Of a stretch of 64,000 nt of DNA, positions 15,441-52,881 are shown one piece after another. Origin of the DNA: a virus; IMG/VR virus record IMGVR_UViG_3300043409_003130, positions 1 to 64,000 of that record; one strand, 5' to 3'. Within the stretch, counting starts at the first letter, position 1, and each line of letters starts with the position of its first letter. Below the pieces are notes generated by a model, which was given only the letters and a program-made list of their open reading frames with translations, was not told the DNA's origin and did not search any database. Both the position numbers and the translations under genes were made by a program.

Positions 15441-17732
15441 ATGTCGAATAAGATTAAAATTAAACAAATTGACCTTGCCGGGGTTTCTCAAGATAATACT
15501 AAAACTAGATTTCTAGCAATAAATGATACTGGAACAGTAGTATATTGGAATGATTCTCCACAGGCTGGAACAAGTGGAACAGGTGGATCAGGCTCTAGTG
15601 GAACTTCTGGTACATCAGGTATAAGTGGTTCAAGTGGAATTTCTGGTTCTAGTGGAACTTCCGGTACATCAGGTATAAGTGGTTCAAGTGGAACTTCTGG
15701 TATGGATGGTTCAAGCGGCACATCTGGTACATCAGGCGTAAATGGTTCAAGCGGTTCTTCTGGAACTTCAGGTATAAGTGGTTCAAGTGGAACATCCGGA
15801 ACCGGCTCGTCAGTTGCAATACAGACAAGCGGAACTTCTGTTTTATCAAATACTCAAATAATAAATTTTGGTTCAGGCCTTACGGTTTCAACTTCTGGAA
15901 CATCAGGTCAAGTTGATGTAGCTGCCTCTGGTGGTTCAATTCAATTTTATGATGAAGGCGGGCTCGTTGGATCATATGCAAAGGTTAACTTTGTTGGAAC
16001 CAGTGTTTATGCAGCTGAAAAACCTGGAGACGCTTCAACAATCAACATCTATATTCCAACACCAACATATGCAAGTAATTATAATTCAACTTCTGGAACA
16101 AGTTCAGGCGCAGTTAGTGAAAGCGGAATTACTAGAAGAACTGTTCGAATTAGCTCTCCAACAACAGAAGGTTCTCCATATTATACTGGTGGAGGTTCAA
16201 ATTCACTGTGGGCTGCAACCTCTCAAGCCTCGGTAACACATACAACCTCTCAACCGACTGTTACTTTTTCAACAGCAAATGCGGTAACTGGAGTTGGTGG
16301 AAATTCAACGGTTAAAGTCGAAATGTTTAGCGGAGATGGAACCACCGTCCTTGCAACATATACAACTCCGTCAATCACTGCAAATGCGGTAAATACCTCT
16401 TCTTCGCCGAACGCCGGAATAACTGTAACTATTACTAATTATGCAGCAGACGGTTTAAAATATAAAGCCTCAATTGTAGCAGCGGTAAATGTTGGAACGG
16501 TATTTACGGCAGTTTCATTAAGCGGCGGCCGATATAATATTAAAGTAACACATACTACGGATACGGCAACTGACGGTGGAACTGAATATTCATATATTCA
16601 ACCTGGTGCTTTTTATGACTTAAATGGCTCTACTCCAAGTTTTGGAGGTGCATCGGTTGCTACCATTTCTGAATCAGGTACCTCAGGTAATATTTTAACA
16701 AAACACCTTAGTGGCGTTGAATATTATATTCTTGGTTCTAGATTTGTAGGCGCGGTTGATAAAATTAATAATTTAAATCAAAATACACAGGGCCGAGCAA
16801 ATGCCGCAAATACAAATTTTTCATTTACTGCAGCAAATTATGGAGTTACAGCACTTGCTGAATATTCATGGTCTCAAGGACCTGGTACATGGACTGGCTG
16901 GACCAATGCCTATGACAATACTGATGCCAGCTATTCCTATGCAAGTTGGGATGTTTCTACCTCAAATTATAGATATCGTGGAACTAGTGGAAGTGCCTCG
17001 GCTATATTATATGATCCATGGAGCAATAGTGCAACCAATACTTCAGCCAATACTTCAATACTAGTAGACTCATATTCAACCTCAGGTAATAGCACTCAAT
17101 ATATTGAGTATTTTAATGATGAACAGTGGAGATTAGCCTCAAACTATTCAACTGCATGGGATCCAACTGCTGCTTTATCAAATGGCGAAGCTTGTGTTGT
17201 TGGTGGAACCATCGTTAGACCAGATAGATTCTTTTTAACTGATCCAAGTACGGCAACTATTCAACCTAATCTTGCTGCGTATAAACCTGATAAAAATGGT
17301 ACAAATCCTAACTATACCGGTTTTTCAAATGATGCAAGTTTTTATAGGTTATTTTATACAACACTAAGTGCCTCAGTTACTCCAATTCCAAGCTTTTCAA
17401 TGGTATTTTCTGGAACCTTTGTTGGTACTGCACTAAGCGATTTACAAAATCAATATTTAAAAGTATTTGTTAGAAAAATTGGAGCAACATCCGGTAACTA
17501 TGGAACAGGTTCACCGCCTCTTCTACTACATGGTGCAGAATATGATAATGGTACATTTGTTGATGGAAGTACATCAGGTACTGATACTCCAGGAATTAGA
17601 TTAGGCTCTTCAAGTGGAGGTACAATTAATGGTACCTTTGGAGGATTTAATGCAACAAACGGAATATATGTTGAAATTAGAATTTGTAATAGTGGAATAA
17701 AAATTGATACAGTAACCGTTGCCTTTAATTAA
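15441..17732 (+). CDS. Collagen-like tail fibre protein with GTSGSSG tract
   Basis: A 763-residue protein. Residues 1-41 form an N-terminal segment (KIKIKQIDLAG...RFLAINDTGTVVYW). Residues about 42-126 are Gly-X-Y triplets almost entirely of GTS, GSS and GIS. The remaining 630 residues are beta-rich, Ser/Thr/Asn/Tyr-rich and fibre-like. The tract is a short version of the one in the next large gene, so the two probably belong to the same fibre system. The N-terminal motif, with a time- or index-like opening strand, resembles that of other phage fibre proteins with GTSG tracts. The Ser/Thr-rich tract is a possible glycosylation target; that is inference. Confidence 0.75.
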   Translation: MSNKIKIKQIDLAGVSQDNTKTRFLAINDTGTVVYWNDSPQAGTSGTGGSGSSGTSGTSGISGSSGISGSSGTSGTSGISGSSGTSGMDGSSGTSGTSGVNGSSGSSGTSGISGSSGTSGTGSSVAIQTSGTSVLSNTQIINFGSGLTVSTSGTSGQVDVAASGGSIQFYDEGGLVGSYAKVNFVGTSVYAAEKPGDASTINIYIPTPTYASNYNSTSGTSSGAVSESGITRRTVRISSPTTEGSPYYTGGGSNSLWAATSQASVTHTTSQPTVTFSTANAVTGVGGNSTVKVEMFSGDGTTVLATYTTPSITANAVNTSSSPNAGITVTITNYAADGLKYKASIVAAVNVGTVFTAVSLSGGRYNIKVTHTTDTATDGGTEYSYIQPGAFYDLNGSTPSFGGASVATISESGTSGNILTKHLSGVEYYILGSRFVGAVDKINNLNQNTQGRANAANTNFSFTAANYGVTALAEYSWSQGPGTWTGWTNAYDNTDASYSYASWDVSTSNYRYRGTSGSASAILYDPWSNSATNTSANTSILVDSYSTSGNSTQYIEYFNDEQWRLASNYSTAWDPTAALSNGEACVVGGTIVRPDRFFLTDPSTATIQPNLAAYKPDKNGTNPNYTGFSNDASFYRLFYTTLSASVTPIPSFSMVFSGTFVGTALSDLQNQYLKVFVRKIGATSGNYGTGSPPLLLHGAEYDNGTFVDGSTSGTDTPGIRLGSSSGGTINGTFGGFNATNGIYVEIRICNSGIKIDTVTVAFN

Positions 17733-17747
17733 AAATAAATCATAATA

Positions 17748-17975
17748 ATGGAAAAAAGCTTTGATAAAAAACTAAAAGTAAAAATAAATAAAGAAAAACA
17801 GTCAGTGTCTTTAAGTATGAAGGTTTCAGATGAAATGGTTAACGTATTTAAAACTAGTCTAAACGAATTTAATATTATGGTTGCTGAATATCAAGCTCAG
17901 CTATTTAGTTTAGAAATTGATGAAAATACTATAGTACCTTCAACTGAAATAGATGAAACACCTGAAATAATTTAA
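17748..17975 (+). CDS. Small hypothetical protein between fibre genes
   Basis: A 75-residue, Lys-rich then Glu-rich protein without membrane segments. A predicted strand-helix (KLKVKINKEKQSVSLSMKVS, then DEMVNVFKTSLNEFNIMVAEY) suggests a small alpha/beta or partly coiled structure. It starts 16 bases after the previous stop and ends 8 bases before the giant fibre gene, so it is co-transcribed with them. A fibre chaperone role is conceivable from position only. Confidence 0.6.
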   Translation: MEKSFDKKLKVKINKEKQSVSLSMKVSDEMVNVFKTSLNEFNIMVAEYQAQLFSLEIDENTIVPSTEIDETPEII

Positions 17976-17982
17976 TAATTAA

Positions 17983-20900
17983 ATGGCCGGATATACTGAT
18001 AGTGAAAGATTAAAACTAGTATTTAAAGTTCAAGCAGCAAACGTAATAGATGCTGCCTCTAATTTTAGTTGGTATGAGGCCAAATTTGCTTTTAATCCAA
18101 ATATTGCAGCAAATAGGGTATTAACTCAGTTTGCGACAATTAAAGCTAACCCAGTTGCAAATAAAGCAGCTGCTCTTGCTTTATTAGGCACCGGAAATCC
18201 ACTAGATGGAATAGTTGCAAATGCATATACTACTGGAATAAGATTAACTCAAGTTATATCTGGTAATAATACTACCTGGGTAGTAGCCGGTACCTATGGA
18301 GATATAACAACTCAAATACTTGATTGGATTCAACCTCAAAAGATTTTACAAACAAGCGGCTCACCATCAATCGGTTGGGCTATTGAATTTTGGAATGGTG
18401 ATCCTGCCAGCGGAGGTACCCAAATTACAACAACTGCTAATGCTGGTACTGAGGTAAGTTGGGTATTTAATTATGATAATGGTCTTTTATTATTATCAGA
18501 TTCAATGGTAACCTATTTAACTTCAACATATGGAACAATTAATCCATATATTCGTGGTTTTTATTATATTGGTGATACCCTTGCGGATAGTGTAGGTACG
18601 AGTGGAACATCTGGTACATCAGGTATTACTGGGTCAAGTGGAACTAGCGGCTCTTCTGGAACCTCAGGTTTAAGTGGAAGCTCTGGAACTTCAGGTTTAA
18701 GCGGAAGCTCAGGAACAGCAGGTTCGTCTGGAACATCTGGTTCAAGCGGTACTTCCGGTATAGATGGTTCAGCTGGAACCTCAGGTTCAAGTGGAAGCTC
18801 TGGAACCTCAGGTTCAAGTGGAAGCTCTGGAACATCTGGTATAGACGGTTCTTCTGGAACTTCAGGTTCAAGCGGTAGCTCTGGTTCTTCAGGTTCAAGC
18901 GGAACTTCAGGTTCTGATGGTTCAAGTGGTAGCTCTGGTTCTTCTGGTTCAAGTGGAACCTCAGGATCAAGCGGTTCAAGTGGTAGTTCAGGTTCAAGCG
19001 GAACTTCTGGTTCTAGTGGAACGGCCGGTTCGAGTGGAACTTCTGGTATTTCAGGAATAAACGGAACGTCTGGTTCTAACGGTACTTCTGGTACAGCCGG
19101 TTCAAGTGGAACTTCTGGTTCGTCTGGAACTTCTGGGTCTAATGGTTCTAGTGGAACTTCTGGTTCTAATGGTTCAAGTGGAACAAGTGGTATAAATGGA
19201 TCAAGCGGTACTTCTGGTATTTCCGGTATAAATGGAACATCTGGTTCAAGCGGAACTTCTGGTTCATCTGGAACCTCTGGGTCTAATGGTTCAAGCGGAA
19301 CTTCCGGTACTTCTGGTTCTAGTGGAACGGCCGGTTCTAGTGGAACAAGTGGTATAAATGGTTCTTCCGGAACTTCAGGTATATCAGGAATAAATGGAGC
19401 AGCAGGTTCAAATGGAACTTCTGGTACATCAGGTTCTGACGGTTCAAGTGGTAGTTCGGGTATTTCTGGTTCAAGTGGTTCTTCCGGTTCAGATGGTTCA
19501 AGCGGTAGTTCAGGAACATCTGGTTCAAGTGGTACTTCTGGTATAAATGGTTCTTCCGGAACTTCCGGTATTTCTGGTATAAATGGAACATCAGGTTCAA
19601 GTGGAATAAGCGGTAGTTCAGGTTCAAGTGGAACAAGTGGAATTTCTGGAACTTCTGGTTCTAGTGGAATTTCTGGTTCTTCAGGTTCAAGTGGTTCTTC
19701 TGGTTCTTCAGGTTCAAGTGGTTCTTCTGGTTCAAGCGGTAGCTCAGGAACATCAGGTTCAGATGGTTCAAGCGGAACTTCTGGTACAGCTGGAACATCA
19801 GGTTCAAGTGGTACGTCTGGTATAAATGGTTCAAGCGGAACAAGTGGTATAAATGGTTCAAGCGGAACTTCTGGTATTTCAGGAATAAATGGAACATCAG
19901 GTTCAAGTGGAATAAGTGGTAGCTCAGGAACTTCCGGTTCAAGCGGTAGCTCAGGTATTTCAGGTTCAAGCGGTACTTCTGGAATTGACGGTTCATCTGG
20001 AACTTCAGGTTCAAGTGGAATAAGCGGTAGCTCTGGTTCTTCTGGTTCAAGTGGAACCTCAGGATCAAGCGGTTCAAGTGGTGAATCTGGTTCAAGCGGA
20101 ACTTCTGGTTCTTCTGGTACATCAGGTTCAAGTGGAACAAGCGGTATAAATGGTTCAAGTGGCACTTCTGGTATTTCTGGTATAAACGGTACTTCAGGTT
20201 CAAGCGGAATAAGTGGTAGCTCAGGAACATCAGGAATAAGTGGTAGCTCAGGAACTTCAGGGGTAAACGGTACCTCCGGTACATCAGGTTCAAGCGGTAT
20301 AGACGGTTCAAGTGGTACTTCAGGAACGGCTGGTTCTTCTGGTACGGCTGGTTCGAGCGGTAGTTCTGGTTCTTCCGGTTCAAGCGGTTCATCTGGTTCA
20401 AGTGGAACTTCTGGTTCTTCTGGTTCAAGTGGTAGCTCGGGTATTTCAGGTTCAAGTGGAACTTCTGGTATATCCGGTATAAATGGAACGTCTGGTTCAA
20501 GTGGAACTTCTGGTATATCGGGATCAAGTGGAACTTCTGGTATATCAGGATCAAGTGGAACTTCTGGTATTTCAGGTTCAAGCGGTAGTTCTGGTTCTTC
20601 GGGAATAGACGGTTCAAGTGGAACTTCCGGTTCAAGTGGTAGCTCTGGTACTTCAGGTTCAAGCGGTATATCCGGTTCTTCAGGTACATCCGGTACAGCT
20701 GGAACATCTGGTTCAGACGGTTCTTCTGGTACATCAGGTTCAAGTGGAACATCCGGTATAAATGGTTCTTCTGGAACATCGGGTATTTCTGGTATAAATG
20801 GAACATCAGGTTCAAGTGGTACATCCGGTTCAAGTGGTATTTCAGGTTCAAGTGGTACTTCAGGAATAAGCGGTAGCTCCGGTACATCTGGTATATCCGG

Positions 20901-23900
20901 TTCAAGCGGTAGTTCAGGTTCTGATGGTTCAAGTGGTAGCTCAGGAACTTCAGGTATATCCGGTTCTAGTGGAACTTCTGGTTCTTCAGGAATAGACGGT
21001 TCAAGTGGAACATCAGGTTCAAGCGGCAGTTCCGGAACATCAGGTTCAAGTGGTACGTCTGGTATAAACGGTTCAAGTGGAACTTCAGGTATTTCTGGAA
21101 TAAACGGTACTTCAGGTTCAAGTGGAACATCCGGAATAAGTGGTAGCTCGGGAACTTCCGGTTCAAGTGGAACTTCTGGTTTAGCTGGTTCTAGTGGAAC
21201 TTCTGGTTTAGCTGGTTCTAGTGGAACATCTGGTTCAGATGGTTCAAGTGGAACATCCGGAATAAGTGGTAGTTCAGGAACGTCCGGTTCAGATGGTTCT
21301 TCTGGAACATCAGGTTCTTCAGGTTCAAGTGGTACATCTGGTTCTTCAGGTTCAAGTGGTGCATCTGGCTCAAGTGGTAGTTCTGGAACATCCGGTATAA
21401 ATGGTTCTTCTGGAACTTCTGGTATTTCAGGAATAAATGGTACGGCCGGTTCTTCTGGTTCAAGCGGTACATCAGGTATAAATGGCTCAAGTGGAACTTC
21501 TGGATCTAGTGGTATAGGCGGTTCAAGCGGTACATCTGGTTCAAGTGGAACTTCAGGCTTTGATGGGTCATCTGGTTCAAGTGGAACCTCTGGTATATCA
21601 GGTTCAAGTGGAACATCTGGTTCAAGCGGAACCTCAGGATCAAGCGGTTCAAGTGGTGAATCTGGTTCAAGCGGAACTTCTGGTTCAAGCGGTTCTAGTG
21701 GAACTTCTGGTTCAAGCGGAACAAGTGGTATAAACGGTTCAAGCGGTACATCCGGTATTTCTGGAGTAAATGGAACTTCCGGTTCAAGTGGAACTTCAGG
21801 TAGTTCAGGCTCTAGCGGAACTTCTGGTTCAAGCGGTGAATCTGGTTCTTCCGGTTCAAGTGGAACTTCTGGATCAAGTGGAATAGACGGGTCTTCTGGT
21901 ACATCAGGTTCAAGCGGCACATCTGGTTCTTCAGGCTCAAGCGGTAGCTCAGGAACTTCTGGTACATCAGGTGCATCAGGTTCAAGTGGAACAAGTGGTA
22001 GCTCAGGTTCAAGTGGAACTTCCGGTTCTTCAGGTTCAAGTGGAACTTCGGGTATAAACGGTTCAAGCGGTACTTCAGGTATTTCTGGAATAAATGGTAC
22101 ATCAGGGTCAAGTGGAATAAGTGGTAGCTCTGGTTCAAGCGGTAGCTCAGGAACTTCAGGCTCAAACGGTACTTCAGGAACAGCCGGGTCAGATGGTTCA
22201 AGCGGAACTTCTGGTTCTAGTGGAACATCTGGTATAAACGGTTCAAGTGGAACTTCTGGTTCTTCTGGATCAAGTGGAACAGCTGGATCTTCAGGAACCT
22301 CTGGTTCTTCAGGAACTTCAGGTTCAAGTGGAACTTCTGGTTCTTCAGGTTCAAGTGGAACTTCTGGTTCTTCTGGTTCAAGCGGAACCTCTGGTATAAA
22401 TGGTTCAAGTGGAACTTCTGGTATTTCTGGAGTAAATGGAACTTCTGGTTCAAGTGGAATTTCCGGTTCTTCTGGAACATCAGGAATAAGTGGAAGCTCA
22501 GGAACTTCCGGTTCTGACGGTTCAAGCGGTAGTTCAGGGTCAAGTGGTGCTTCGGGTTCTTCTGGTTCAAGCGGCACTTCTGGTTTGGACGGTTCAAGCG
22601 GTAGTTCAGGCTCTAGTGGAACTTCTGGTTCTTCTGGTTCAAGCGGTGAATCTGGTTCTTCTGGTACATCAGGTTCAAGCGGTTCAAGCGGTTCTAGTGG
22701 AACAAGTGGTATAAATGGTTCAAGTGGAACGTCCGGTATTTCTGGTATAAATGGAACATCAGGTTCAAGTGGAATTTCCGGCTCAAGTGGAACTTCTGGT
22801 ATTTCAGGTTCAAGTGGTAGTTCAGGAACTTCTGGATCAAGCGGAACTTCTGGTATTTCAGGTTCAAGCGGAACATCTGGTTCCGATGGATCTAGTGGTA
22901 GTTCAGGTATTTCTGGTTCAAGTGGGACTTCTGGTTCTTCTGGAACTTCCGGTTCAAGTGGAACTTCTGGTTCTTCTGGTTCAAGTGGAACCTCTGGTTC
23001 TAGTGGTAGTTCTGGTTCTTCAGGTTCAAGTGGTACTTCTGGTATAAACGGTTCAAGTGGAACGTCAGGTATTTCTGGAATAAACGGTACTTCAGGATCA
23101 AGCGGAATAAGTGGTAGTTCAGGTTCAAGTGGAACATCGGGTTCAAGCGGTACATCTGGTTCAAGCGGGTCAAGCGGAACTTCTGGTTTAGCTGGATCAA
23201 GTGGAACATCTGGTTCAGATGGCTCAAGTGGAACATCAGGAATAAGTGGAAGCTCAGGAACTTCAGGTTCAGATGGTTCAAGCGGTAGTTCTGGTTCTTC
23301 AGGTTCAAGTGGAACTTCTGGTTCTTCTGGTTCAAGCGGAACCTCTGGTTCTAGTGGTAGTTCGGGAACATCTGGTATAAATGGTTCTAGTGGAACATCT
23401 GGTATTTCAGGAATAAATGGTACATCCGGTTCTTCAGGTTCAAGCGGTACATCTGGTATAAATGGTTCAAGTGGAACCTCTGGTTCTTCTGGTTCAAGTG
23501 GTGAATCTGGTTCTTCCGGTTCAAGCGGAACTTCTGGATCAAGTGGAATAGACGGGTCTTCTGGGACGTCAGGTTCAAGCGGTAGTTCTGGTTCTTCAGG
23601 TTCAAGTGGTAGCTCAGGAACTTCTGGTTCAAGTGGAATTTCAGGATCAAGCGGTAGTTCTGGTTCTTCAGGTTCAAGTGGTACCTCTGGTATAAATGGT
23701 TCTTCTGGAACATCAGGTATTTCTGGAGTAAATGGTACATCTGGTTCAAGCGGAACCTCAGGAATAAGCGGTAGCTCAGGAACTTCTGGTATATCAGGTT
23801 CAAGTGGTAGCTCAGGAACTTCTGGAACATCAGGTTCAAGTGGGACTTCAGGTTCTTCTGGAACTTCAGGTTCAAGTGGAACTTCCGGTAATGATGGTTC

Positions 23901-26900
23901 TTCCGGTTCAAGCGGAACTTCTGGTATTTCAGGTTCAAGCGGTTCAAGTGGAACTTCTGGCTTAAGCGGTAGTTCAGGAACTTCTGGTATAAATGGTTCT
24001 TCTGGAACTTCCGGTTCAAGTGGAACTTCAGGTATTTCAGGAATAAACGGAACATCAGGTTCTAGTGGAACTTCAGGTATAAATGGTTCAAGCGGAACTT
24101 CAGGTTTAAATGGTTCTTCTGGAACCTCTGGCCTAAGTGGTAGTTCAGGAACTTCAGGTTCAAGCGGTACATCCGGTTCAAGTGGTACATCTGGTATAAA
24201 TGGATCAAGTGGTACATCTGGTTCAAGTGGGACTTCGGGTTCTTCCGGTTCAAGTGGAACTTCTGGAACATCAGGTTCAAGTGGGACTTCAGGTTCAAGT
24301 GGTACATCTGGTTCTTCAGGTTCAAGCGGAACTTCTGGTTTAAATGGTTCAAGTGGAACATCTGGTATAAATGGTACTTCTGGTTCAAGCGGTACTTCTG
24401 GATCAAGTGGAACATCTGGTTCTAGTGGTAGCTCAGGAACTTCAGGTTCAAGCGGATTAAGCGGAGTAAATGGAATAGACGGTTCAAGTGGAACTTCTGG
24501 TATAAATGGTTCAAGTGGAACATCTGGTTCTTCTGGATCAAGCGGAACTTCTGGGTCTAGCGGAACTTCAGGTTCTAGTGGGTCTAGTGGAACATCTGGT
24601 TCTTCTGGATCAAGCGGAACATCTGGTTCTAGTGGTAGTTCAGGAACTTCAGGTATAAATGGTAGTTCAGGAACTTCGGGTATAAATGGTTCAAGTGGAA
24701 CTTCAGGCTCAAGTGGAACTTCGGGTTCAAGTGGTTCTAGTGGAACTTCAGGTTCAAGTGGTTCTAGTGGAACGTCTGGTTCTTCTGGAACATCTGGGTC
24801 TAGTGGAACATCTGGAACTTCTGGTTCTAGTGGTACTTCTGGATCAAGCGGAACTTCTGGTATTTCAGGAATAAATGGTACTTCAGGTTCAAGCGGTATT
24901 TCAGGTTCAAGTGGAACTTCTGGAATATCTGGAACTTCAGGTTCAAGTGGTAGTTCAGGCTCTAGTGGAACTTCTGGTATTTCAGGTTCAAGTGGAACTT
25001 CTGGTTCAAGCGGTAGTTCAGGTTCAAGCGGAACGTCTGGTTCTTCAGGTTCAAGCGGTAGTTCAGGAATATCTGGTTCTTCTGGAACTTCTGGTTCAAG
25101 TGGTTCAAGCGGTTCATCTGGTACATCAGGTTCAAGTGGTACTTCTGGTATTTCAGGAATAAATGGTACATCTGGTACATCTGGTGCAACTGGTTCAAAC
25201 GGTTCTTCTGGAACTTCAGGTTCAAGTGGTAGCTCAGGTACATCAGGTTCAAGTGGTAGTTCAGGTTCAAGCGGAACTTCTGGTTCTAGCGGTAGTTCTG
25301 GAACATCAGGTATAAATGGTTCAAGCGGTAGCTCTGGAACTTCTGGAAATTCAGGTTCAAGTGGGACTTCGGGTTCTTCAGGCTCAAGCGGTAGTTCAGG
25401 TTCTTCAGGTTCAAGTGGTAGTTCTGGAACATCAGGCGTATCAGGTTCAAGTGGAACATCTGGAATATCTGGAACTTCTGGTTCAAGTGGTAGCTCAGGT
25501 ACATCAGGTTCAAGTGGTAGTTCAGGTTCAAGTGGAACTTCTGGTTCAAGTGGAACTTCTGGTTCTTCAGGTTCAAGTGGTAGTTCTGGAACATCAGGTT
25601 TAAGCGGTTCAAGTGGTACTTCTGGTATTTCTGGAGTAAATGGAACTTCTGGTACTTCTGGTGCAAATGGTTCAAGCGGAACCTCTGGTTCAAATGGTTC
25701 AAGCGGTACTTCTGGTAATTCAGGTTCTAGCGGGTCAAGTGGAACTTCCGGTAACTCAGGTTCAAGTGGTACGTCTGGCTTAAACGGTGCAAATGGTTCA
25801 AGCGGAACTTCAGGTTCAAGCGGAACTTCTGGTTCTTCAGGCTCAAGCGGTAGTTCAGGTTCTTCAGGTTCTAGTGGTAGTTCAGGAACTTCCGGTTCTT
25901 CAGGTTCGTCAGGTTCAAGTGGAACTTCTGGTATAAATGGTTCAAGCGGAACCTCTGGTACGTCAGGTGCAACTGGGTCAAATGGCTCTAGTGGAACATC
26001 AGGTTCAAGCGGTAGCTCTGGAACATCAGGCTCTTCTGGTTCAAGTGGAACAAGCGGCAGCTCAGGTTCAAGCGGTAGTTCAGGAACATCAGGCTCAAGC
26101 GGTTCAAGTGGAACTTCTGGTATTAGTGGCAGTTCAGGTACTTCAGGTATTTCTGGAGTAAATGGAACTTCTGGTACATCAGGCGGAACTGGTTCAAACG
26201 GTTCAAGTGGAACTTCAGGTTCTTCAGGTTCTAGCGGTACGTCCGGTGCAACTGGTTCAAACGGTTTAAATGGTTCAAGTGGAACTTCAGGTTCTTCAGG
26301 TTCTAGTGGTGCAACCGGCTCAAACGGTTCTTCTGGAACTTCAGGTTCTAGTGGATCAAGCGGTTCAACTGGTTCAAATGGTTCTTCTGGAACTTCAGGT
26401 TCTAGCGGTACTTCTGTTGCTGTTTCTGGAACAAATAATACCCTTGTTAAATTTACATCTTCTTCAACTGTTGGTAATTCAACAATAACGGATGATGGAA
26501 CTAATATAAAAGCGACAACAACTTCATTAGTCGCTGGATATGACCCAACTCCATTAGCTGGAACCATACGAGACGGGGTAACATCAGTGCTAGGTGATTT
26601 AAATTCATGGAATAGTAATTTCTATCAAGGAACTGTATTATATTCAGAAACAGCAGGAGCAACAATTACCTTTGGTCAATTATGTTATAGAACACAAAAC
26701 GAAACTTGGGAATTAGCTGATGCAACAGCAATTGCATCCGCAGCAACTAACATGTTAGGCATTTGTGTTAAATCTTCAACTTCAACTAATCCAACTTCCA
26801 TACTAATTAATGGGTTTGTTGAAACTGCTACTTATGCAGCTATTTTAAAATCTGGAGAACCTTTGTATATGGCTATAACTGCAGGCAGTATGACTAAAAC

Positions 26901-27018
26901 CGCACCAACCACTGCTGGAAACATAGTTAGATTAATAGGTCATACATTTTGGGACTCTAATACAAATTCAAAAATAGTAATACGCTTTAATCCTGAAAAT
27001 TCTTGGATAGAATTATAA
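17983..27018 (+). CDS. Giant collagen-like fibre protein (3011 residues)
   Basis: Residues 1-204 form an N-terminal domain with aromatic and hydrophobic residues (for example FSWYEAKFAFNPN, GWAIEFWNGDPASGG). Residues about 205-2810 are an unbroken run of roughly 870 Gly-X-Y triplets, nearly all GTS, GSS, GIS, GIN, GID, GLS or GTA, without proline or basic residues. Residues about 2811-3011 form a globular C-terminal domain (VAVSGTNNTLVKFTSSS to FNPENSWIEL). Gly at every third position fits a collagen triple helix or a polyglycine-II bundle as in some phage adhesins. At 0.29 nm per residue the tract would extend for about 0.75 micrometre. About two of three residues are Ser or Thr, so roughly 1700 hydroxyls are available for O-glycosylation. 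Fibre function is inferred; the fold is not proven. Confidence 0.8.
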   Translation: MAGYTDSERLKLVFKVQAANVIDAASNFSWYEAKFAFNPNIAANRVLTQFATIKANPVANKAAALALLGTGNPLDGIVANAYTTGIRLTQVISGNNTTWVVAGTYGDITTQILDWIQPQKILQTSGSPSIGWAIEFWNGDPASGGTQITTTANAGTEVSWVFNYDNGLLLLSDSMVTYLTSTYGTINPYIRGFYYIGDTLADSVGTSGTSGTSGITGSSGTSGSSGTSGLSGSSGTSGLSGSSGTAGSSGTSGSSGTSGIDGSAGTSGSSGSSGTSGSSGSSGTSGIDGSSGTSGSSGSSGSSGSSGTSGSDGSSGSSGSSGSSGTSGSSGSSGSSGSSGTSGSSGTAGSSGTSGISGINGTSGSNGTSGTAGSSGTSGSSGTSGSNGSSGTSGSNGSSGTSGINGSSGTSGISGINGTSGSSGTSGSSGTSGSNGSSGTSGTSGSSGTAGSSGTSGINGSSGTSGISGINGAAGSNGTSGTSGSDGSSGSSGISGSSGSSGSDGSSGSSGTSGSSGTSGINGSSGTSGISGINGTSGSSGISGSSGSSGTSGISGTSGSSGISGSSGSSGSSGSSGSSGSSGSSGSSGTSGSDGSSGTSGTAGTSGSSGTSGINGSSGTSGINGSSGTSGISGINGTSGSSGISGSSGTSGSSGSSGISGSSGTSGIDGSSGTSGSSGISGSSGSSGSSGTSGSSGSSGESGSSGTSGSSGTSGSSGTSGINGSSGTSGISGINGTSGSSGISGSSGTSGISGSSGTSGVNGTSGTSGSSGIDGSSGTSGTAGSSGTAGSSGSSGSSGSSGSSGSSGTSGSSGSSGSSGISGSSGTSGISGINGTSGSSGTSGISGSSGTSGISGSSGTSGISGSSGSSGSSGIDGSSGTSGSSGSSGTSGSSGISGSSGTSGTAGTSGSDGSSGTSGSSGTSGINGSSGTSGISGINGTSGSSGTSGSSGISGSSGTSGISGSSGTSGISGSSGSSGSDGSSGSSGTSGISGSSGTSGSSGIDGSSGTSGSSGSSGTSGSSGTSGINGSSGTSGISGINGTSGSSGTSGISGSSGTSGSSGTSGLAGSSGTSGLAGSSGTSGSDGSSGTSGISGSSGTSGSDGSSGTSGSSGSSGTSGSSGSSGASGSSGSSGTSGINGSSGTSGISGINGTAGSSGSSGTSGINGSSGTSGSSGIGGSSGTSGSSGTSGFDGSSGSSGTSGISGSSGTSGSSGTSGSSGSSGESGSSGTSGSSGSSGTSGSSGTSGINGSSGTSGISGVNGTSGSSGTSGSSGSSGTSGSSGESGSSGSSGTSGSSGIDGSSGTSGSSGTSGSSGSSGSSGTSGTSGASGSSGTSGSSGSSGTSGSSGSSGTSGINGSSGTSGISGINGTSGSSGISGSSGSSGSSGTSGSNGTSGTAGSDGSSGTSGSSGTSGINGSSGTSGSSGSSGTAGSSGTSGSSGTSGSSGTSGSSGSSGTSGSSGSSGTSGINGSSGTSGISGVNGTSGSSGISGSSGTSGISGSSGTSGSDGSSGSSGSSGASGSSGSSGTSGLDGSSGSSGSSGTSGSSGSSGESGSSGTSGSSGSSGSSGTSGINGSSGTSGISGINGTSGSSGISGSSGTSGISGSSGSSGTSGSSGTSGISGSSGTSGSDGSSGSSGISGSSGTSGSSGTSGSSGTSGSSGSSGTSGSSGSSGSSGSSGTSGINGSSGTSGISGINGTSGSSGISGSSGSSGTSGSSGTSGSSGSSGTSGLAGSSGTSGSDGSSGTSGISGSSGTSGSDGSSGSSGSSGSSGTSGSSGSSGTSGSSGSSGTSGINGSSGTSGISGINGTSGSSGSSGTSGINGSSGTSGSSGSSGESGSSGSSGTSGSSGIDGSSGTSGSSGSSGSSGSSGSSGTSGSSGISGSSGSSGSSGSSGTSGINGSSGTSGISGVNGTSGSSGTSGISGSSGTSGISGSSGSSGTSGTSGSSGTSGSSGTSGSSGTSGNDGSSGSSGTSGISGSSGSSGTSGLSGSSGTSGINGSSGTSGSSGTSGISGINGTSGSSGTSGINGSSGTSGLNGSSGTSGLSGSSGTSGSSGTSGSSGTSGINGSSGTSGSSGTSGSSGSSGTSGTSGSSGTSGSSGTSGSSGSSGTSGLNGSSGTSGINGTSGSSGTSGSSGTSGSSGSSGTSGSSGLSGVNGIDGSSGTSGINGSSGTSGSSGSSGTSGSSGTSGSSGSSGTSGSSGSSGTSGSSGSSGTSGINGSSGTSGINGSSGTSGSSGTSGSSGSSGTSGSSGSSGTSGSSGTSGSSGTSGTSGSSGTSGSSGTSGISGINGTSGSSGISGSSGTSGISGTSGSSGSSGSSGTSGISGSSGTSGSSGSSGSSGTSGSSGSSGSSGISGSSGTSGSSGSSGSSGTSGSSGTSGISGINGTSGTSGATGSNGSSGTSGSSGSSGTSGSSGSSGSSGTSGSSGSSGTSGINGSSGSSGTSGNSGSSGTSGSSGSSGSSGSSGSSGSSGTSGVSGSSGTSGISGTSGSSGSSGTSGSSGSSGSSGTSGSSGTSGSSGSSGSSGTSGLSGSSGTSGISGVNGTSGTSGANGSSGTSGSNGSSGTSGNSGSSGSSGTSGNSGSSGTSGLNGANGSSGTSGSSGTSGSSGSSGSSGSSGSSGSSGTSGSSGSSGSSGTSGINGSSGTSGTSGATGSNGSSGTSGSSGSSGTSGSSGSSGTSGSSGSSGSSGTSGSSGSSGTSGISGSSGTSGISGVNGTSGTSGGTGSNGSSGTSGSSGSSGTSGATGSNGLNGSSGTSGSSGSSGATGSNGSSGTSGSSGSSGSTGSNGSSGTSGSSGTSVAVSGTNNTLVKFTSSSTVGNSTITDDGTNIKATTTSLVAGYDPTPLAGTIRDGVTSVLGDLNSWNSNFYQGTVLYSETAGATITFGQLCYRTQNETWELADATAIASAATNMLGICVKSSTSTNPTSILINGFVETATYAAILKSGEPLYMAITAGSMTKTAPTTAGNIVRLIGHTFWDSNTNSKIVIRFNPENSWIEL
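18595..26414 (+). repeat. 7.8 kb Gly-Ser-Thr coding repeat with higher-order cassettes
   Basis: A 9-base codon-triplet repeat (Gly-X-Y) continues without a break. A longer cassette, GINGSSGTSGISGINGTSG with small variants (VNG, TAG, AAG), recurs about twenty times at irregular spacing of roughly 90-150 residues, so the tract grew by duplication of larger blocks. Ser is spelled TCA, TCT, TCC, AGT and AGC, and Gly GGT, GGA, GGC and GGG, in scrambled order, so long identical DNA stretches are fewer than the protein repetition would allow. The two antisense frames are also open, but only as a by-product of the repeat. Confidence 0.9.
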
Positions 27019-27028
27019 TATTTAATTT

Positions 27029-27976
27029 ATGAAAATTAAAGGAGTAGATACAACGGTTATTGTTAAAATAAATGGAATTGCTCGAGCTTCAATTGTAAAA
27101 GCCTCTGGAGTAGCCCTTCCAGTTATATCAACTACCACTACAACAACCTCTGGTGGATTTACCTCAGCAACTGGTGGAACCGTAACAACTTCTGGTGACT
27201 ATAAAATACATACATTTACTAGTGTAGGCAGTACAAACTTTGTAGTTAGTACCGTTGGAACTGCTCCAAATAATAAGTTTGAAATATTATTAGTTGCAGG
27301 CGGAGGTGGTGGAGGTGGACAGTATGTAGGAGGCGGTGGCGGTGGCGGCGGAGTCATTGAAAATACAAACTATGGTTTATCAAGTGGTGCAACAACATAT
27401 AGTGTAGCAGTAGGTGGTGGTGGAGCTGGAAGTAGTTACTTTGAAACAGCCGGCGGTAACGGTACAAACACAACTTTTGATAGTAATACGGCAGTCGGCG
27501 GTGGCGGCGGAGCAAGCCATGGAGCTAATGCTCAAGTTGGAGGTTCAGGTGGAGGTGGTGCCGGTCTACAATATAACAATCCAACACAGGAATTAGGAGC
27601 AGCTGGAACAGCAAGTCAAGGTAATGCAGGTGGTAATGGTTCTGGTGCAGGTCCATACTATGGTGCAGGTGGTGGAGGAGGAGCCGGGGCAGTTGGAAGT
27701 GTTGGAACTGGTACAAATGGCGGAGCTGGTGGAGCCGGAGTAGTATCAGCAATAGATAGTAATTACTACGGTGGAGGCGGCGGAGGCTCGGTTTATACAG
27801 CAAATGGAACCGGCGGAGCTGGAGGAACTGGCGGCGGTGGAGCTGGAAGTGATGGAGGCGGAACGAATGGCACTGCTAATACCGGCGGTGGAGGCGGTGG
27901 TTCTGAAAGAAATGGAACAGCTACCGGTGGTTCAGGTGGTTCAGGTATTGTAATAATAAAATATAAATTTCAATAA
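27029..27976 (+). CDS. Glycine-rich tail fibre tip or adhesin-like protein
   Basis: A 315-residue protein. Residues 1-35 are a short strand-rich segment, then a TTTTTTSGG linker. Residues from about 50 contain YKIHTFTSVGSTNFVVS leading into VAGGGGGGG and many poly-Gly strings. The end, GGSGIVIIKYKF, is the usual close of phage glycine-rich domain proteins. Glycine-rich adhesins of this type (as at the tips of some T4-like long tail fibres) form polyglycine-II sandwiches that carry variable receptor-binding loops. It starts 11 bases after the giant fibre gene, so it may be its tip partner; that pairing is inferred from position. Confidence 0.7.
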   Translation: MKIKGVDTTVIVKINGIARASIVKASGVALPVISTTTTTTSGGFTSATGGTVTTSGDYKIHTFTSVGSTNFVVSTVGTAPNNKFEILLVAGGGGGGGQYVGGGGGGGGVIENTNYGLSSGATTYSVAVGGGGAGSSYFETAGGNGTNTTFDSNTAVGGGGGASHGANAQVGGSGGGGAGLQYNNPTQELGAAGTASQGNAGGNGSGAGPYYGAGGGGGAGAVGSVGTGTNGGAGGAGVVSAIDSNYYGGGGGGSVYTANGTGGAGGTGGGGAGSDGGGTNGTANTGGGGGGSERNGTATGGSGGSGIVIIKYKFQ

Positions 27977-28345
27977 ATGGCACATTTTGCACTTATAAAA
28001 GAAACTATTGTAATTGCAGTAATTATAGTTGATAATAATGCAATTACCGATAATGGAGTTGAGGTTGAACAATTAGGTATTGACTTAATAGACTCTTTAA
28101 ATATTAAAGGGCTTTATGATTATGATACGGTAAGACAAACCTCTTATAATTCAAATTTTAGAAGTAAATATGCCAGAATAGGAGACACTTGGAATGAAAT
28201 TAATAATGTTTTTATTTCACCTAAACCCTTTCCAAGTTGGGTATTAGATGCTAATTTTAAATGGAAATCACAAGTAACCTATCCAAGTAGTGGTCACTAT
28301 ACCTGGAATGAAACCCTATCTGAATGGGTACCTTTATCATTTTAA
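27977..28345 (+). CDS. Conserved small phage protein of fibre clusters
   Basis: 122 residues starting MAHFALIKE and containing VIIVDNNAI, RQTSYNSNFRSKYARIG and a C-terminal PKPFPSWVLD...YTWNETLSEWV. This block order (an N-terminal query-like strand, a QTSYN motif, a P-K-P-[YF]-P-S-W motif and a final W-W segment) is familiar from many marine and freshwater T4-like phages, where the protein is found next to structural genes. Its role is unknown. The ATG follows the previous stop directly. Confidence 0.7.
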   Translation: MAHFALIKETIVIAVIIVDNNAITDNGVEVEQLGIDLIDSLNIKGLYDYDTVRQTSYNSNFRSKYARIGDTWNEINNVFISPKPFPSWVLDANFKWKSQVTYPSSGHYTWNETLSEWVPLSF

Positions 28346-28373
28346 TTAATCTTAAAAACCACTAGTGTAATAT

Positions 28374-28382
28374 AAGTATAAT
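28374..28382 (+). promoter_or_regulatory. AAGTATAAT promoter-like word before glycosyltransferase
   Basis: AAGTATAAT, preceded by AGTGTAATAT, sits 18 bases before the ATG at 28401. It is a one-base variant of the TAGTATAAT word found at 14414, 52052 and 62563. Confidence 0.45.
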
Positions 28383-28400
28383 CTTAAAAGATTTAATTAT

Positions 28401-30725
28401 ATGTCAAATTTAAAAATAAAGGCTCATACTTCGTTTATTGGAACCACCGGTTATAATAATCATGCTCAGTCATTTTTTAAAACCCTATCAAAGTATACAC
28501 CAGTTGAAGTTAGAAATTTTACAATAGGTAAAAGCTGGACTAATTATTCAGATGAACCACATAATGGTGAGCCTTATTTAGATAATACCCTAAAAACAAT
28601 GTTAGTTCAACAAAGTTTATGGGATCATAATAAGCGGCTGTCGGACTATCCAATTTATAAAAATTGGCATAATCCAGGCAAAGCGGATATTAACTTAGTT
28701 TTAAATGAAACCAATCATCACTATTTTTATCAAGACTATCAAGGCTATTCAATTGCCTATAACGTTTGGGAATCAACTTTACAACCTGAAGCTTTTTTTA
28801 ATAGACTATTAGACTTTAATGAATTATGGGTTCCTTCAAAATGGCAACGAGACTGTACGATTGCTCAAGGTTATCCAGCTGATAAAATATTTGTTATACC
28901 AGAAGGCGTTGACTCTGATATATTTTTTCCAGAAGAGGTTAGCCATCCACTAACCAGTAATGGCAGATTTACCTTTTCTATATTTGGAAGATGGGATTAC
29001 CGAAAGTCAACCAAGGAATTAATAGAAACTTTTTTATCTGAATTTTCAAAAGACGAACCGGTTGACCTAATATTAAGTATTGATAATCCATACTCTGGTG
29101 ATGGGCTAACGAGTACAGAAGAGAGACTTGCCCATTATAACTTTACAGATGACCGCCTTAAAGTATTACACTTACCGCCTAGAGAAGAATATATTAAATT
29201 ATTAAAGTCAACTAGCGTATTTCTTTCATGTGCCCGAGCCGAAGGTTGGAATCTTCCATTAATTGAGGCAATGTCATGCGGAACTCCATCAATCTATTCA
29301 AACTGCTCAGCTCAATTAGAATTTGCAGAAGGTAAAGGTTTACCAGTTAAAATAGTTGGTGAAAGGCCGATTAGTGAAAGTACCTATGCTCATTTTAATG
29401 AGAGTATTGGAAACTATTATGAGCCTGACTTTGTAGACCTAGCAAAGGTAATGAGATCAGCCTATACAGATTGGGCTAAATATAAAAAGGAGGCACTATC
29501 CCAGGCCAAGGAAATTCATAAAAATTTTAATTGGGATAAAATTGCAAAAGAGGCAATGGATCATATTAATAGTCAGTCTGAAATCATTAACCGTGTGAAC
29601 TCAGCTGCTAGCAAACCGCTAAATATTGGCCATCATTTTGTTAGAGGCGCACATATTGAGTTATCCGGAGGCGATCCTAATCAATATTGGGTTGAATTTA
29701 TAAATCAATCAACCGGCAAAGTTGAACACTCTGGAGAAATTTCAAATAGTATGTGGATTAAAACCAGTAAAACCTATTTTATTGACTGGTTAATAACTGT
29801 AAAAGACCTTTCGTCAGGAGAAATTGTGTTTAACAAAAAATTAGATCTATTAGATAAACGTGTCTATATTTCGCTTGATTCAAAATCATTAGGTGATACC
29901 CTAGCCTGGTTTCCAGCAGTTGAAGAATTTCGTAAAAAACACAAGTGTAAAGTTATATGCTCTACTTTTCAAAATGATTTTTTTGAAAAAACCTATCCAG
30001 AAATAGAATTTATTAAACCTGGAGATGAAGTACACGATGTAAAAGCCCTATATTCAATTGGGTGGTATTATGGTGAAAATGAAGAATTAAATCCAAATAT
30101 GAATCCTAACGAGACTAAAAATCAACCAATGCAAAAAACTGCATTTGATATTTTAGGGCTTGAATATCAAGAAGTTGTTCCAAAATTAAGTATTCCAACT
30201 GAAACTAAAAAGAAACAGGTTGCCATTGCAATTCATGCAACTTGTCAGGCTAAATATTGGAATAATCCAACCGGTTGGCAAGAGGTTGTTGACTGGTGTA
30301 GTTCCCATAATTATGAAGTTGTCCTAATTTCAAGAGAAGATTCAGGTTTCATGGGAAATATTCAGCCTACTGGTATTAGAAAATTACCAAGCGGTCCAAT
30401 TGAGGCAGCTATTTCTGAAATTTCAAAGTCTGAAGCTTTTATTGGAATAGGCAGTGGTCTAAGTTGGTTAGCATGGGCATTAGGAACTCCAACTATCCTA
30501 ATTTCAGGATTCTCACATGACTATACCGAACCACTTACAAATACCAATAGAATTTGTTCACCGGCTGGTAAATGTGCAGGTTGTTTTAATACTCATAAAT
30601 TAGATCCAAGCGACTGGAATTGGTGCCCGATCCATAAAGGAACTGACCGCCAATTTGAATGTTCTAAATTAATTACAGCAGACTCGGTAATATCTCAATT
30701 AAAGACGATACTTGGTCTCGTATAG
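28401..30725 (+). CDS. GT4 plus autotransporter-type O-heptosyltransferase-like fusion
   Basis: A 774-residue two-domain glycosyltransferase. Residues 1-400 look like a GT-B enzyme of the GT4 type: IFGRWDYRKS, then EGWNLPLIEAMSCGTPS near residue 280, with the E-x7-E pattern. Residues about 410-774 match the bacterial autotransporter heptosyltransferase (BAHT; Aah/TibC) family: a beta domain (RGAHIELSGG...NSMW), SLGDTLAWFPAVEEFRKKH, CQAKYWNNPTGWQEVV, GIGSGLSWLAWALGTP and the metal-site cysteines Cys725, Cys728, Cys742 and Cys754 (KCAGC, WCPIHKGTDRQFEC). BAHT enzymes attach heptose to Ser/Thr of repetitive surface adhesins. The gene lies 1.4 kb after the giant Ser/Thr fibre gene, the likely acceptor by inference. 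The sugar donor is not predictable. Confidence 0.8.
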   Translation: MSNLKIKAHTSFIGTTGYNNHAQSFFKTLSKYTPVEVRNFTIGKSWTNYSDEPHNGEPYLDNTLKTMLVQQSLWDHNKRLSDYPIYKNWHNPGKADINLVLNETNHHYFYQDYQGYSIAYNVWESTLQPEAFFNRLLDFNELWVPSKWQRDCTIAQGYPADKIFVIPEGVDSDIFFPEEVSHPLTSNGRFTFSIFGRWDYRKSTKELIETFLSEFSKDEPVDLILSIDNPYSGDGLTSTEERLAHYNFTDDRLKVLHLPPREEYIKLLKSTSVFLSCARAEGWNLPLIEAMSCGTPSIYSNCSAQLEFAEGKGLPVKIVGERPISESTYAHFNESIGNYYEPDFVDLAKVMRSAYTDWAKYKKEALSQAKEIHKNFNWDKIAKEAMDHINSQSEIINRVNSAASKPLNIGHHFVRGAHIELSGGDPNQYWVEFINQSTGKVEHSGEISNSMWIKTSKTYFIDWLITVKDLSSGEIVFNKKLDLLDKRVYISLDSKSLGDTLAWFPAVEEFRKKHKCKVICSTFQNDFFEKTYPEIEFIKPGDEVHDVKALYSIGWYYGENEELNPNMNPNETKNQPMQKTAFDILGLEYQEVVPKLSIPTETKKKQVAIAIHATCQAKYWNNPTGWQEVVDWCSSHNYEVVLISREDSGFMGNIQPTGIRKLPSGPIEAAISEISKSEAFIGIGSGLSWLAWALGTPTILISGFSHDYTEPLTNTNRICSPAGKCAGCFNTHKLDPSDWNWCPIHKGTDRQFECSKLITADSVISQLKTILGLV

Positions 30726-30735
30726 ATAATTCTAT

Positions 30736-31353
30736 ATGATTTTAAACTCAAGACAGAATGGATTTCTAATAAATTTACCGCAGGATTTTTTTAATGCTGA
30801 GGTTCAAACCCGATATGATAAATATTACAGAAATTTATTATTACCGTATAAGTCAATTTCAGATTTTATGGCATCTACCATTCAAGGAGTTAATTTTCCA
30901 GGTTTAACAACGGTATTGCCTACTCAAATTAGAACACTAGGCAAAATTCAAGAAGTGCAAAGTGCAAAACCTATTGCGGATATGTTTACTAGAGAGTTAA
31001 AATTAACTTTTAAGTTAACTGATGCATATCTTAACTATTTTATATTTTTAGATAATGCACTAAATTATTTAGAACCAGCAAACACCTCAACCTCGTATAT
31101 TGGAAATACGGCACTAGGCCAATCGTTAACCGTTCCGCCAATTGCCAATAATAATCATCCATTTTTTAGTCCAATCCGATTAACTCTATTAAATAACGAA
31201 GGGTATGCAGTAAGTTCAGTAATATTTAACCGGCCTCAGCTTAAACAGCTCAGTGAATTAACCCTAAGTTATTCAGCAGTGGTTCCAAAGTTTAGCTTTT
31301 TTACTGCAACTTTTAGCTATTATAATTTTGATTTAGAATTAGACTTTGACTAA
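30736..31353 (+). CDS. Tail-tube-like structural protein
   Basis: A 205-residue beta-rich protein. Segments such as IQGVNFPGL, RELKLTFKLTD...NYFIFLDNALNYL, a LTLLNNEG strand and a final FFTATFSYYNFDLELDFD give the alternating strand and helix pattern of tail-tube-fold proteins, which in T4 include gp19 and tube-initiation relatives. It begins 10 bases after the glycosyltransferase and faces the minus-strand block tail to tail. Tail-tube assignment is a pattern judgement, not a clear family match. Confidence 0.4.
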   Translation: MILNSRQNGFLINLPQDFFNAEVQTRYDKYYRNLLLPYKSISDFMASTIQGVNFPGLTTVLPTQIRTLGKIQEVQSAKPIADMFTRELKLTFKLTDAYLNYFIFLDNALNYLEPANTSTSYIGNTALGQSLTVPPIANNNHPFFSPIRLTLLNNEGYAVSSVIFNRPQLKQLSELTLSYSAVVPKFSFFTATFSYYNFDLELDFD

Positions 31354-52080: not shown

Positions 52081-52881
52081 ATGGCAGACGTATTATGCTC
52101 AATTGAGGAAGCTAGAGAAGCTGGAACTCTTCAAGTCTTTGAAAAAAAGACTAAATATCACGAATATAAATTTCTGGTTAGGTCAGAAGAAGAGATCAAA
52201 TTCAATGTTTCTCAAAATATCTCAATGAAGCCGACTGGTGGAGAGTATTTTAAACCATTATTTTTACCTCACTATGCACAGGACGGTAATCCATTAAGCC
52301 TGGATGATCTTAATCAAGAAGATACTTGGTTAGATGCTGGAGCCCATATTGGTATATTTGCAACCCGACTACTTACCCAATTTCCAAAAATTAAAAAAGT
52401 TTATTCATATGAGCCGTTTCATAATAATGTAGAATTTGCTCAACAGAATATTGAAATGAATGGTGTACAAGATCGTTGCGAAATTATTGAAAAGGCTGTT
52501 GTACCTGGTGACGAAACCTCAGTAGACTTTTTTCTTTCTCAAGATTCAGGTAAACACTCAGTTCATCCAGTAAAAGGTAGAAAAGTAATGACTGTGCCTG
52601 CTGAGAATATTAATGAAGTTCTTAAAAAGGTTAACTGTGTAAAGATGGATATTGAAGGTCTAGAATATGAGATGATTAAGTCAATTACTGACTGGAGTAA
52701 AATAAAATTATTTATTGTAGAATATCATTTTCATTATAGTTGGCTACTTGAAAATCGCACTCAAAAGTTTAATGAAGTAATGTCAATTATGGAAAATAAC
52801 TTTGATCGTATTTTTGTAAACCGAAATGCTGGAACAAGTAAGCATTTCATAACTCACTTTGCTGGATTTAAAAATGTGTAA
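52081..52881 (+). CDS. FkbM-family methyltransferase
   Basis: A 266-residue SAM-dependent methyltransferase. SAM motif I is LDAGAHIGIF (84-93), followed by YSYEPFHNNVEFAQQNIEMN, CVKMDIEGLEYEMIK (the D-I-E-G block of FkbM) and a final IVEYHFHYSW. The FkbM family commonly O-methylates sugars or polyketides. The glycosyltransferase-like gene that follows and shares its promoter type makes a glycan-methylation role plausible; the acceptor is not known. It ends directly at the ATG of a small gene. Confidence 0.8.
   Translation: MADVLCSIEEAREAGTLQVFEKKTKYHEYKFLVRSEEEIKFNVSQNISMKPTGGEYFKPLFLPHYAQDGNPLSLDDLNQEDTWLDAGAHIGIFATRLLTQFPKIKKVYSYEPFHNNVEFAQQNIEMNGVQDRCEIIEKAVVPGDETSVDFFLSQDSGKHSVHPVKGRKVMTVPAENINEVLKKVNCVKMDIEGLEYEMIKSITDWSKIKLFIVEYHFHYSWLLENRTQKFNEVMSIMENNFDRIFVNRNAGTSKHFITHFAGFKNV

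Follow-up and report, generated by a model that had tools for sequence, protein, structure and literature searches.

The 64-kb stretch of viral DNA analysed here (positions 1 to 64,000 of IMG/VR record IMGVR_UViG_3300043409_003130, which is 82.5 kb long; hereafter the window) belongs to an uncultured tailed phage that probably glycosylates its own virion by two parallel O-glycosylation systems, each with its own type of acceptor. One would pair a fused glycosyltransferase, the C-terminal half of which is of the TibC/AAH type (BAHT family), with a giant collagen-like fibre, and the other would pair a predicted glycosyltransferase of family phrog_4417 with a Thr-rich, mucin-like protein. The proposal is based on domain identity, retained active-site residues, predicted folds, gene linkage and co-occurrence, from which the acceptors, the order of the sugars, the donor and the benefit are inferred. 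The record carries terminase and baseplate-wedge genes; the terminase is 30–36% identical to those of uncultured huge phages, Sphingomonas phage PAU and Tenacibaculum phages, the closest among the phage matches listed.

The open reading frame (ORF) at 28401–30725 is open and intact and encodes 774 residues. Its C-terminal half matched TIGR04414 (hepto_Aah_TibC), an equivalog model for the TibC/AAH O-heptosyltransferases, at 273.6 bits (cut-off 200; 276 bits in the genome search), matched TibC (4rap) at E 2.4e-57 in a sequence search of the PDB, and scored 39.6 bits against Pfam GT9 (cut-off 22). The N-terminal half matched PF00534 (33.3 bits, cut-off 26.4) and phrog_2170 (3.5e-35). In an AlphaFold model of the whole protein, built with 18 sequences (mean predicted local distance difference test (pLDDT) 83.9; predicted template modelling score (pTM) 0.58), residues 407–774 superimpose on TibC residues 22–390 with a Z score of 36.9 at 2.3 Å over 357 aligned residues, covering the N-terminal β-barrel region of TibC, and residues 1–396 resemble enzymes of the glycosyltransferase family 4 (GT4) type such as MshA and BshA (Z 30–32). 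The Pfam TibC_1st model gave 15 bits, under its cut-off of 27. An earlier note, made from the sequence alone, had proposed exactly such a fusion of a GT4-type enzyme to a domain with the BAHT signature; profile searches and structure prediction bear out both halves.

The active site of TibC is largely preserved (numbering of TibC after an excerpt of PMC4358343). Cys residues 725, 728, 742 and 754 align with Cys-339, Cys-342, Cys-358 and Cys-370 of the TibC iron finger, and the catalytic base Asp-110 together with Thr-226, Lys-230 and Trp-305 correspond to D499, T614, K618 and W689. Both sets are invariant in 28 of 28 phage BAHT representatives, a residue table from which the partial L058 was excluded. 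The window domain is a BAHT by family and belongs to a clade that consists mainly of phage sequences and has an altered nucleotide pocket. At three loci (L498, L511 and L514) a second, shorter BAHT-like ORF adjoins the full-length one.

The candidate acceptor of this enzyme is a 3011-residue protein that scored 1123 bits against the collagen model PF01391 and contains 867 Gly-X-Y triplets, 402 of them GSS and 267 GTS. The X position is chiefly Ser (430), Thr (278) or Ile (117) and the Y position chiefly Ser (749). In the whole protein there are 1212 Ser, 341 Thr and 13 Pro; 1463 of the 1553 Ser and Thr residues lie inside triplets. The regular array described in the earlier note is thus present, with fewer Ser and Thr than the 1700 or so stated there, and the enzyme gene begins 1382 bp after the fibre gene, as had been claimed (1.4 kb). 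Given the rise of 0.286 nm per residue of a triple helix, the fibre, if triple-helical, would by arithmetic be about 0.74 micrometres long. Work on a vent worm is reported to show that collagen lacking hydroxyproline can be stabilised through glycosylation of Thr. An antisense ORF of 2667 residues at 18564–26567 was rejected on reading the sequence as an artefact of the GSS/GTS codon repeat.

Co-occurrence in other phages, with controls, supports the earlier idea of a system aimed at the phage's own Gly-Ser/Thr fibre. A Gly-Ser/Thr fibre ORF was found in the flanks of 34 of the 55 viral loci with BAHT relatives, gathered starting from the window enzyme, and in none of the control loci picked by a PhoH P-loop pattern (0/120) or a Gly-Pro pattern (0/119) and scanned with the same detector; the DNA scanned came to 904 kb for the BAHT loci versus 1026 and 1060 kb for the controls, single BAHT loci being about twice as long. 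Counted by 5-mer clusters, excluding the phage-collection loci L002–L004, the fibre lies near BAHT in 15 of 26, the window's own cluster among them. The reverse test, in which contigs picked by the pattern GTSGSS were profile-searched with TIGR04414, gave 21/79 versus 1/46 and 0/49 control contigs, and 11/20 versus 1/31 for contigs of at least 60 kb (hand count). The fibre falls inside the stretch around BAHT in 16 of these 21 contigs. Gene order varies: the fibre precedes the enzyme by 1.4 kb in the window, the enzyme precedes the fibre by 56–60 bp in L027, L028 and L037, the two lie on opposite strands with a 12-bp gap in L506, and in other loci they are several kb apart.

Several observations weigh against the fibre as the acceptor, or against virion glycosylation as such. 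BAHT was not detected in 58 of the 79 fibre contigs, many of which are fragments, nor in 9 of the 20 of at least 60 kb, and in 5 of the 21 BAHT-bearing ones the fibre lies outside the stretch around the enzyme. Eleven of the 26 BAHT clusters have no such fibre in the stretch covered (mostly the L010–L024 group, plus L035, L040 and L058; five of them covered over less than 10 kb), and neither has L518, the BAHT-bearing PhoH control contig. In the sister loci L519–L525 the fibre is non-adjacent, 4.5–5.2 kb from BAHT. The fibre is tied to the virion by setting and resemblance only, and in the window enzyme the position of TibC Arg-286 is occupied by Ala670. Moreover, the controls are non-tail genes, so part of the enrichment could reflect the location of BAHT among tail genes. 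On that last ground it could be argued that the genes are co-located only through a shared variable host-recognition region and that the enzyme acts on phage DNA or some other target, phage glycosyltransferases being often read as DNA-protecting (excerpt of PMC10202952). We consider this very unlikely: fibre and enzyme genes are separated by 12–60 bp in several different arrangements, no DNA glucosyltransferase family was among the matches of the family searches made, and the association of phrog_4417 with Thr tracts, described below, is also seen with capsid and tail proteins in phages that infect Gram-positive bacteria.

The fibre and the enzyme recur in sister phages, whose terminases are 77–94% (mostly 77%) identical to that of the window. 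In this lineage 11 of the 13 contigs searched, several being near-copies, had a TIGR04414 match above cut-off, and the fibre was present in 7 of 7 contigs inspected. The slot between the fibre and a 205-residue ORF, which holds one fused gene in the window, holds separate genes in L519: a GT4–FkbM methyltransferase fusion (936 residues), a small protein that barely passes a methyltransferase model (26.4 bits, cut-off 26.3) and a methyltransferase–BAHT protein (924 residues), followed by the 205-residue ORF. The 205-residue ORFs of the window and L519 correspond in size and position. That GT4 and BAHT are fused in the window and near neighbours in the sister phages argues for action on the same glycan, and the methyltransferase domains of the sister phages, one of them FkbM-type, mean that the glycan may be methylated. 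ORFs of the sister type (GT4, 935 residues; BAHT, 924 residues) and a match to the fibre end were also seen on a 254-kb contig of a Bacteroidetes metagenome-assembled genome (MAG; L483), which is probably a phage contig binned with a bacterium and gives a weak hint at a host in Bacteroidota.

A further relative is found in Microcystis phage Mel-JY01. Its protein WWT39291, annotated as methyltransferase FkbM, begins with GT4 and ends with BAHT as in the window (47.5% identity over 98% of the query; TIGR04414 317 bits), and a Gly-Ser/Thr ORF of 1016 residues lies 1.7 kb upstream of the enzyme. That ORF is mostly unannotated, the record having an opposite-strand gene at that place. WWT39291 differs from the window enzyme in its length of 1227 residues, with an extra central region.

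The identity of the sugar is a separate question. In TibC, Arg-286 contacts the adenine of ADP-heptose, and its change to Ala abolished or largely diminished activity (excerpt of PMC4358343). The equivalent residue is kept in 2 and lost in 26 of the 28 phage representatives, while all 12 ORFs of 11 bacterial loci have Arg (taken from a single sequence search; two share one 5.4-kb contig and two others are identical). In a tree of 42 rows, a fully supported branch of 1.32 separated 10 bacterial rows from all others; the phage rows are thereby set apart from 10 of the 12 bacterial rows, the other two sitting in the phage-rich part. These two adjoin each other on the 5.4-kb contig, a Thioalkalivibrio MAG contig (L486) that may be viral.

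Searches for heptose-making genes covered 43 BAHT-bearing records. A GmhA-type heptose isomerase (TIGR00441) was found in 3 of the 43, one of them above cut-off, and HldE-type adenylyltransferase (TIGR02199) in 0/43 above cut-off, with weaker matches in 5; the genes flanking GmhA in two phages (10 proteins searched against Pfam, 6 against NCBIfam) gave no other heptose-pathway domain. The search neither proves nor excludes heptose. The L040 group keeps Arg-286 and has a GmhA-type gene on its contig, and therefore may be a true heptose user. This correspondence is loose: L004, with GmhA, has Leu at the position, and L003 has Arg and no GmhA match in its record. Virion glycosylation with ADP-heptose as the BAHT donor, as in TibC and AAH, is a sub-case of the present proposal and does not exclude its other forms. 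The TIGR04414 score, the kept Asp, Thr, Lys and Trp residues and the few GmhA-type genes speak for it; we nevertheless consider it doubtful in view of the adenine-contact Arg lost in the window and most phage representatives, the TIGR02199 result and the split in the tree. Heptose as the sugar is unproven because a residue essential in TibC is lost and heptose-making genes are rare in these phages. Of the earlier statement that the family adds heptose, membership of the BAHT family stands, by profile and fold, and heptose itself is a candidate sugar.

The second enzyme is the protein encoded at 14428–15384. The glycosyltransferase that had been claimed at this place was not recovered by sequence families, with no Pfam or NCBIfam match at E up to 1, and was supported by the predicted fold. 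The protein belongs to phrog_4417, a PHROG family of unknown function. Its predicted model (pLDDT 95.6; 41 aligned sequences) has the GT-A glycosyltransferase fold, with glycogenin as a match (Z 14.6, 3.5 Å, 224 residues aligned) and UGGT, LgtC and LARGE1 at Z 13–14; the fold matches listed span Z 13.1–14.6 over 210–246 residues with 5–14% identity. D106 and D108 of a DxD motif are invariant in 41 of 41 aligned relatives. No Pfam GT8 match was found among the 41 phrog_4417 members, and membership of GT8 cannot be read from the fold by itself. Searching PDB chains by sequence with the phrog_4417 family returned only TALE-repeat chains and other evident chance matches. Based on the model, we are confident in predicting a GT-A glycosyltransferase with a putative DxD metal motif.

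A pattern scan gave 454 viral stretches with phrog_4417 relatives, of which the best 80, forming 47 clusters, were used. Strict Thr tracts (at least 9 Thr in 15 residues) occur in ORFs of 77 of the 80 loci (45/47 clusters), versus 0/120 and 4/119 control loci. A looser detector (8 Ser/Thr in 15 with at least 6 Thr) was rejected as unspecific, matching 30/120 and 66/119 control loci. A mucin-like ORF precedes the phrog_4417 gene on the same strand in 69 of the 80 loci (40/47 clusters), at a distance of 16–115 bp in 50 of them; the mucin detector found none at the 55 BAHT loci. Strict Thr tracts were also seen in 8/55 BAHT loci and 15/120 fibre loci. The Thr-rich linkers that had been grouped with the fibre thus appear to go with the 14428 enzyme and not mainly with BAHT.

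The same association extends to isolated phages. The phrog_4417 gene is present in 74 isolate records, mostly of Lactobacillus, Enterococcus, Staphylococcus and Lactococcus phages, and a strict Thr tract lies near it in 16 of the 19 neighbourhoods read, on capsid and tail proteins among others. In phiFL1A the major tail protein carries the tract at its C-terminus. Lactococcus phage 1706 has two structural proteins that satisfy the strict criterion, and structural proteins with poly-Thr tails are encoded next to its phrog_4417 gene. SAC12B, ENFP1 and LP65 fall below the strict cut and have, by eye, PTTVAP- or TTTET-type repeats in upstream genes. The gene directly upstream of phrog_4417 is annotated as major tail protein in phiFL1A-C and Semele. 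In bIL285 that gene is annotated as major head protein, and the Thr tract belongs to the major tail protein, encoded further along.

Glycosyltransferases of phages may also act on the host. Published readings in pelagimyophages and freshwater actinophages are host-surface change or DNA protection (excerpts of PMC7029224 and PMC10202952). On the first of these views the window enzymes would alter the lipopolysaccharide O-chain or capsule against superinfection, a role proposed for the glycosyltransferases that pelagimyophages encode next to tail genes, in their host-recognition region (same excerpt of PMC7029224), and the GT4 and GT9 families do include lipopolysaccharide enzymes. We find this unlikely. 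TibC, the nearest relative of solved structure, O-glycosylates protein and shares the four-Cys iron finger (excerpt of PMC4358343), neither the 774-residue nor the 14428 protein has a long hydrophobic stretch (by eye; no membrane predictor was run), and the genetic linkage is to one class of Ser/Thr-rich protein.

The simplest reading of the two linkage patterns is modification of the phage's own particle, which would take place in the host cytoplasm. The GT4–BAHT fusion would recognise the Gly-Ser/Thr-Ser array of the giant fibre; its TibC-like half would attach the first sugar to Ser or Thr, with Asp499 as the base and a nucleotide-sugar donor supplied by the host, and the GT4 half would probably attach a second sugar, the glycan being perhaps methylated. 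The phrog_4417 GT-A enzyme would act on the mucin-like protein whose gene directly precedes its own, glycosylating the Thr tracts. The benefit could be a stiff, hydrated, protease-resistant fibre, or a shield; stiffness, protease resistance and evasion of receptors had been offered in the earlier note as possible gains. Overall, the observation of the earlier note is confirmed and its interpretation partly supported; the phrog_4417 system, an unplanned find in the same window, may reach wider than the first.

The genes of both systems belong to one plus-strand run (starts at 9552, 10951, 14428, 15441, 17983, 27029, 27977, 28401 and 30736; Table 1) with gaps of 0–56 bp, except for 250 bp ahead of the giant fibre gene. 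The Thr tracts of the mucin-like protein are encoded at 12868–13185, 13462–13527 and 13819–14082, and its gene ends 30 bp 5' of the phrog_4417 gene. The 763-residue fibre-type protein has a short Gly-Ser/Thr-X array at 15591–15797. Pfam gave no autotransporter match among the 22 window proteins scanned, including all neighbours at 9552–31353. Short Ser/Thr runs were seen in two further proteins, STTTTTTS in the Gly-rich one and STTTTSTSTTTTTT in the one encoded at 254–4228 of the same region. The amidoligase-like and ATP-grasp proteins are possible additional peptide-modifying enzymes. The phage window also contains a transfer-messenger RNA (tmRNA) gene.

Table 1. Coordinates of the features in the window, and of the GmhA-type genes in other BAHT-bearing records.
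Feature	Position	Strand	Evidence or remark
Amidoligase-like ORF	9552–10904	+	Amidoligase_2-like, 25.5 bits (cut-off 22); directly 5' of mucin-like gene
Mucin-like protein, 1148 residues (268 Thr, 142 Ser)	10951–14397	+	Candidate acceptor
phrog_4417 protein, 318 residues, predicted GT-A glycosyltransferase	14428–15384	+	phrog_4417, 8.1e-63; D106-x-D108
Second fibre-type protein, 763 residues	15441–17732	+	Possible acceptor; PF01391, 38.4 bits; phrog_31482
Giant collagen-like fibre, 3011 residues	17983–27018	+	Candidate BAHT acceptor; Gly-X-Y array at 18595–26415
Gly-rich domain protein, 315 residues	27029–27976	+	PF21722, 69.3 bits; phrog_2295; starts 10 bp past fibre
phrog_7759 protein, 122 residues	27977–28345	+	phrog_7759, a family of unknown function; between fibre and enzyme
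GT4-type (GT-B fold) domain, residues 1–396 of the 774-residue fusion	28401–29588	+	PF00534; phrog_2170; predicted model
TibC/AAH-type (BAHT) domain, residues 405–770 of the fusion	29613–30710	+	TIGR04414; TibC model alignment; residue map
205-residue protein	30736–31353	+	10 bp past enzyme gene; ORF of 205 residues also trails BAHT gene in sister locus L519
tmRNA gene, predicted tag DNNITFWSLVNQVNTPATEELLLAA	33691–34075	-	RF00023, 103.8 bits
FkbM-type methyltransferase	52081–52881	+	Possible glycan methylase; PF05050, 45.8 bits
YheC/D-type ATP-grasp protein	58579–59706	-	Possible peptide-modifying enzyme
GmhA-type gene, contig of L040	G201:C1:175631-176089		
GmhA-type gene, contig of L045	G203:C1:77891-78349		
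GmhA-type gene, record of L004	W03:C1:430182-430640		

The data suggest that self-glycosylation of fibres and tails is common among phages. More specifically, the evidence leans, though not far, towards at least two widespread virion glycosylation systems of tailed phages with distinct acceptor codes, in which a pocket-changed BAHT clade would serve Gly-Ser/Thr fibres and phrog_4417 would serve poly-Thr or mucin-like tracts on proteins of the capsid, tail and fibres, in phages that range from large uncultured ones and one of Chryseobacterium to those of Lactococcus and Enterococcus. Sugars on the fibre may do the work of proline and hydroxyproline in stabilising a Pro-poor triple helix. Among the matches listed in the open-licence part of the PubMed Central (PMC) database, no paper linked BAHT enzymes to phages or phrog_4417-type proteins to Thr tracts. 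If correct, the proposal would turn phrog_4417 and phage BAHT genes into a testable statement on how phages modify their own particles. Virion glycosylation, reported so far for a few mycobacteriophages, would be tied to recognisable acceptor tracts, and our data point to it as a common trait of large uncultured phages and of phages of Gram-positive bacteria. Phage BAHTs that lack the adenine-contact Arg would offer a natural test of how protein O-heptosyltransferases choose their donor, and a collagen of such length that is both glycosylated and poor in Pro would be unusual.

Three known systems invite comparison. In mycobacteriophages Che8, Corndog and Myrna, a phage glycosyltransferase modifies the phage's own virion (Freeman et al. 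2023, as cited in excerpts of PMC12363180 and PMC12619734), with glycans at the C-termini of capsid and tail tube proteins according to the same excerpts. The window proposal likewise has a phage-encoded enzyme acting on the phage's own proteins; its proposed acceptors differ, being a giant Gly-Ser/Thr fibre and a mucin-like protein. Known GT-A enzymes of the glycogenin/GT8, LgtC, UGGT and LARGE1 types have the predicted fold and the DxD motif in common with the 14428 protein, which in contrast lacks a convincing Pfam, NCBIfam or PDB sequence match. The BAHTs TibC and AAH (PDB 4rap, 4rb4) share with the window enzyme the fold, catalytic and donor-site residues, the iron-finger Cys residues and a Ser/Thr-rich repetitive surface protein encoded nearby. 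A dodecameric ring and bound iron are further traits of that family. Unlike TibC and AAH, the window enzyme is fused to GT4, is phage-encoded, has lost the adenine-contact Arg and falls in a mostly separate clade, and it is encoded among genes for collagen-like and Gly-rich proteins, with no autotransporter match.

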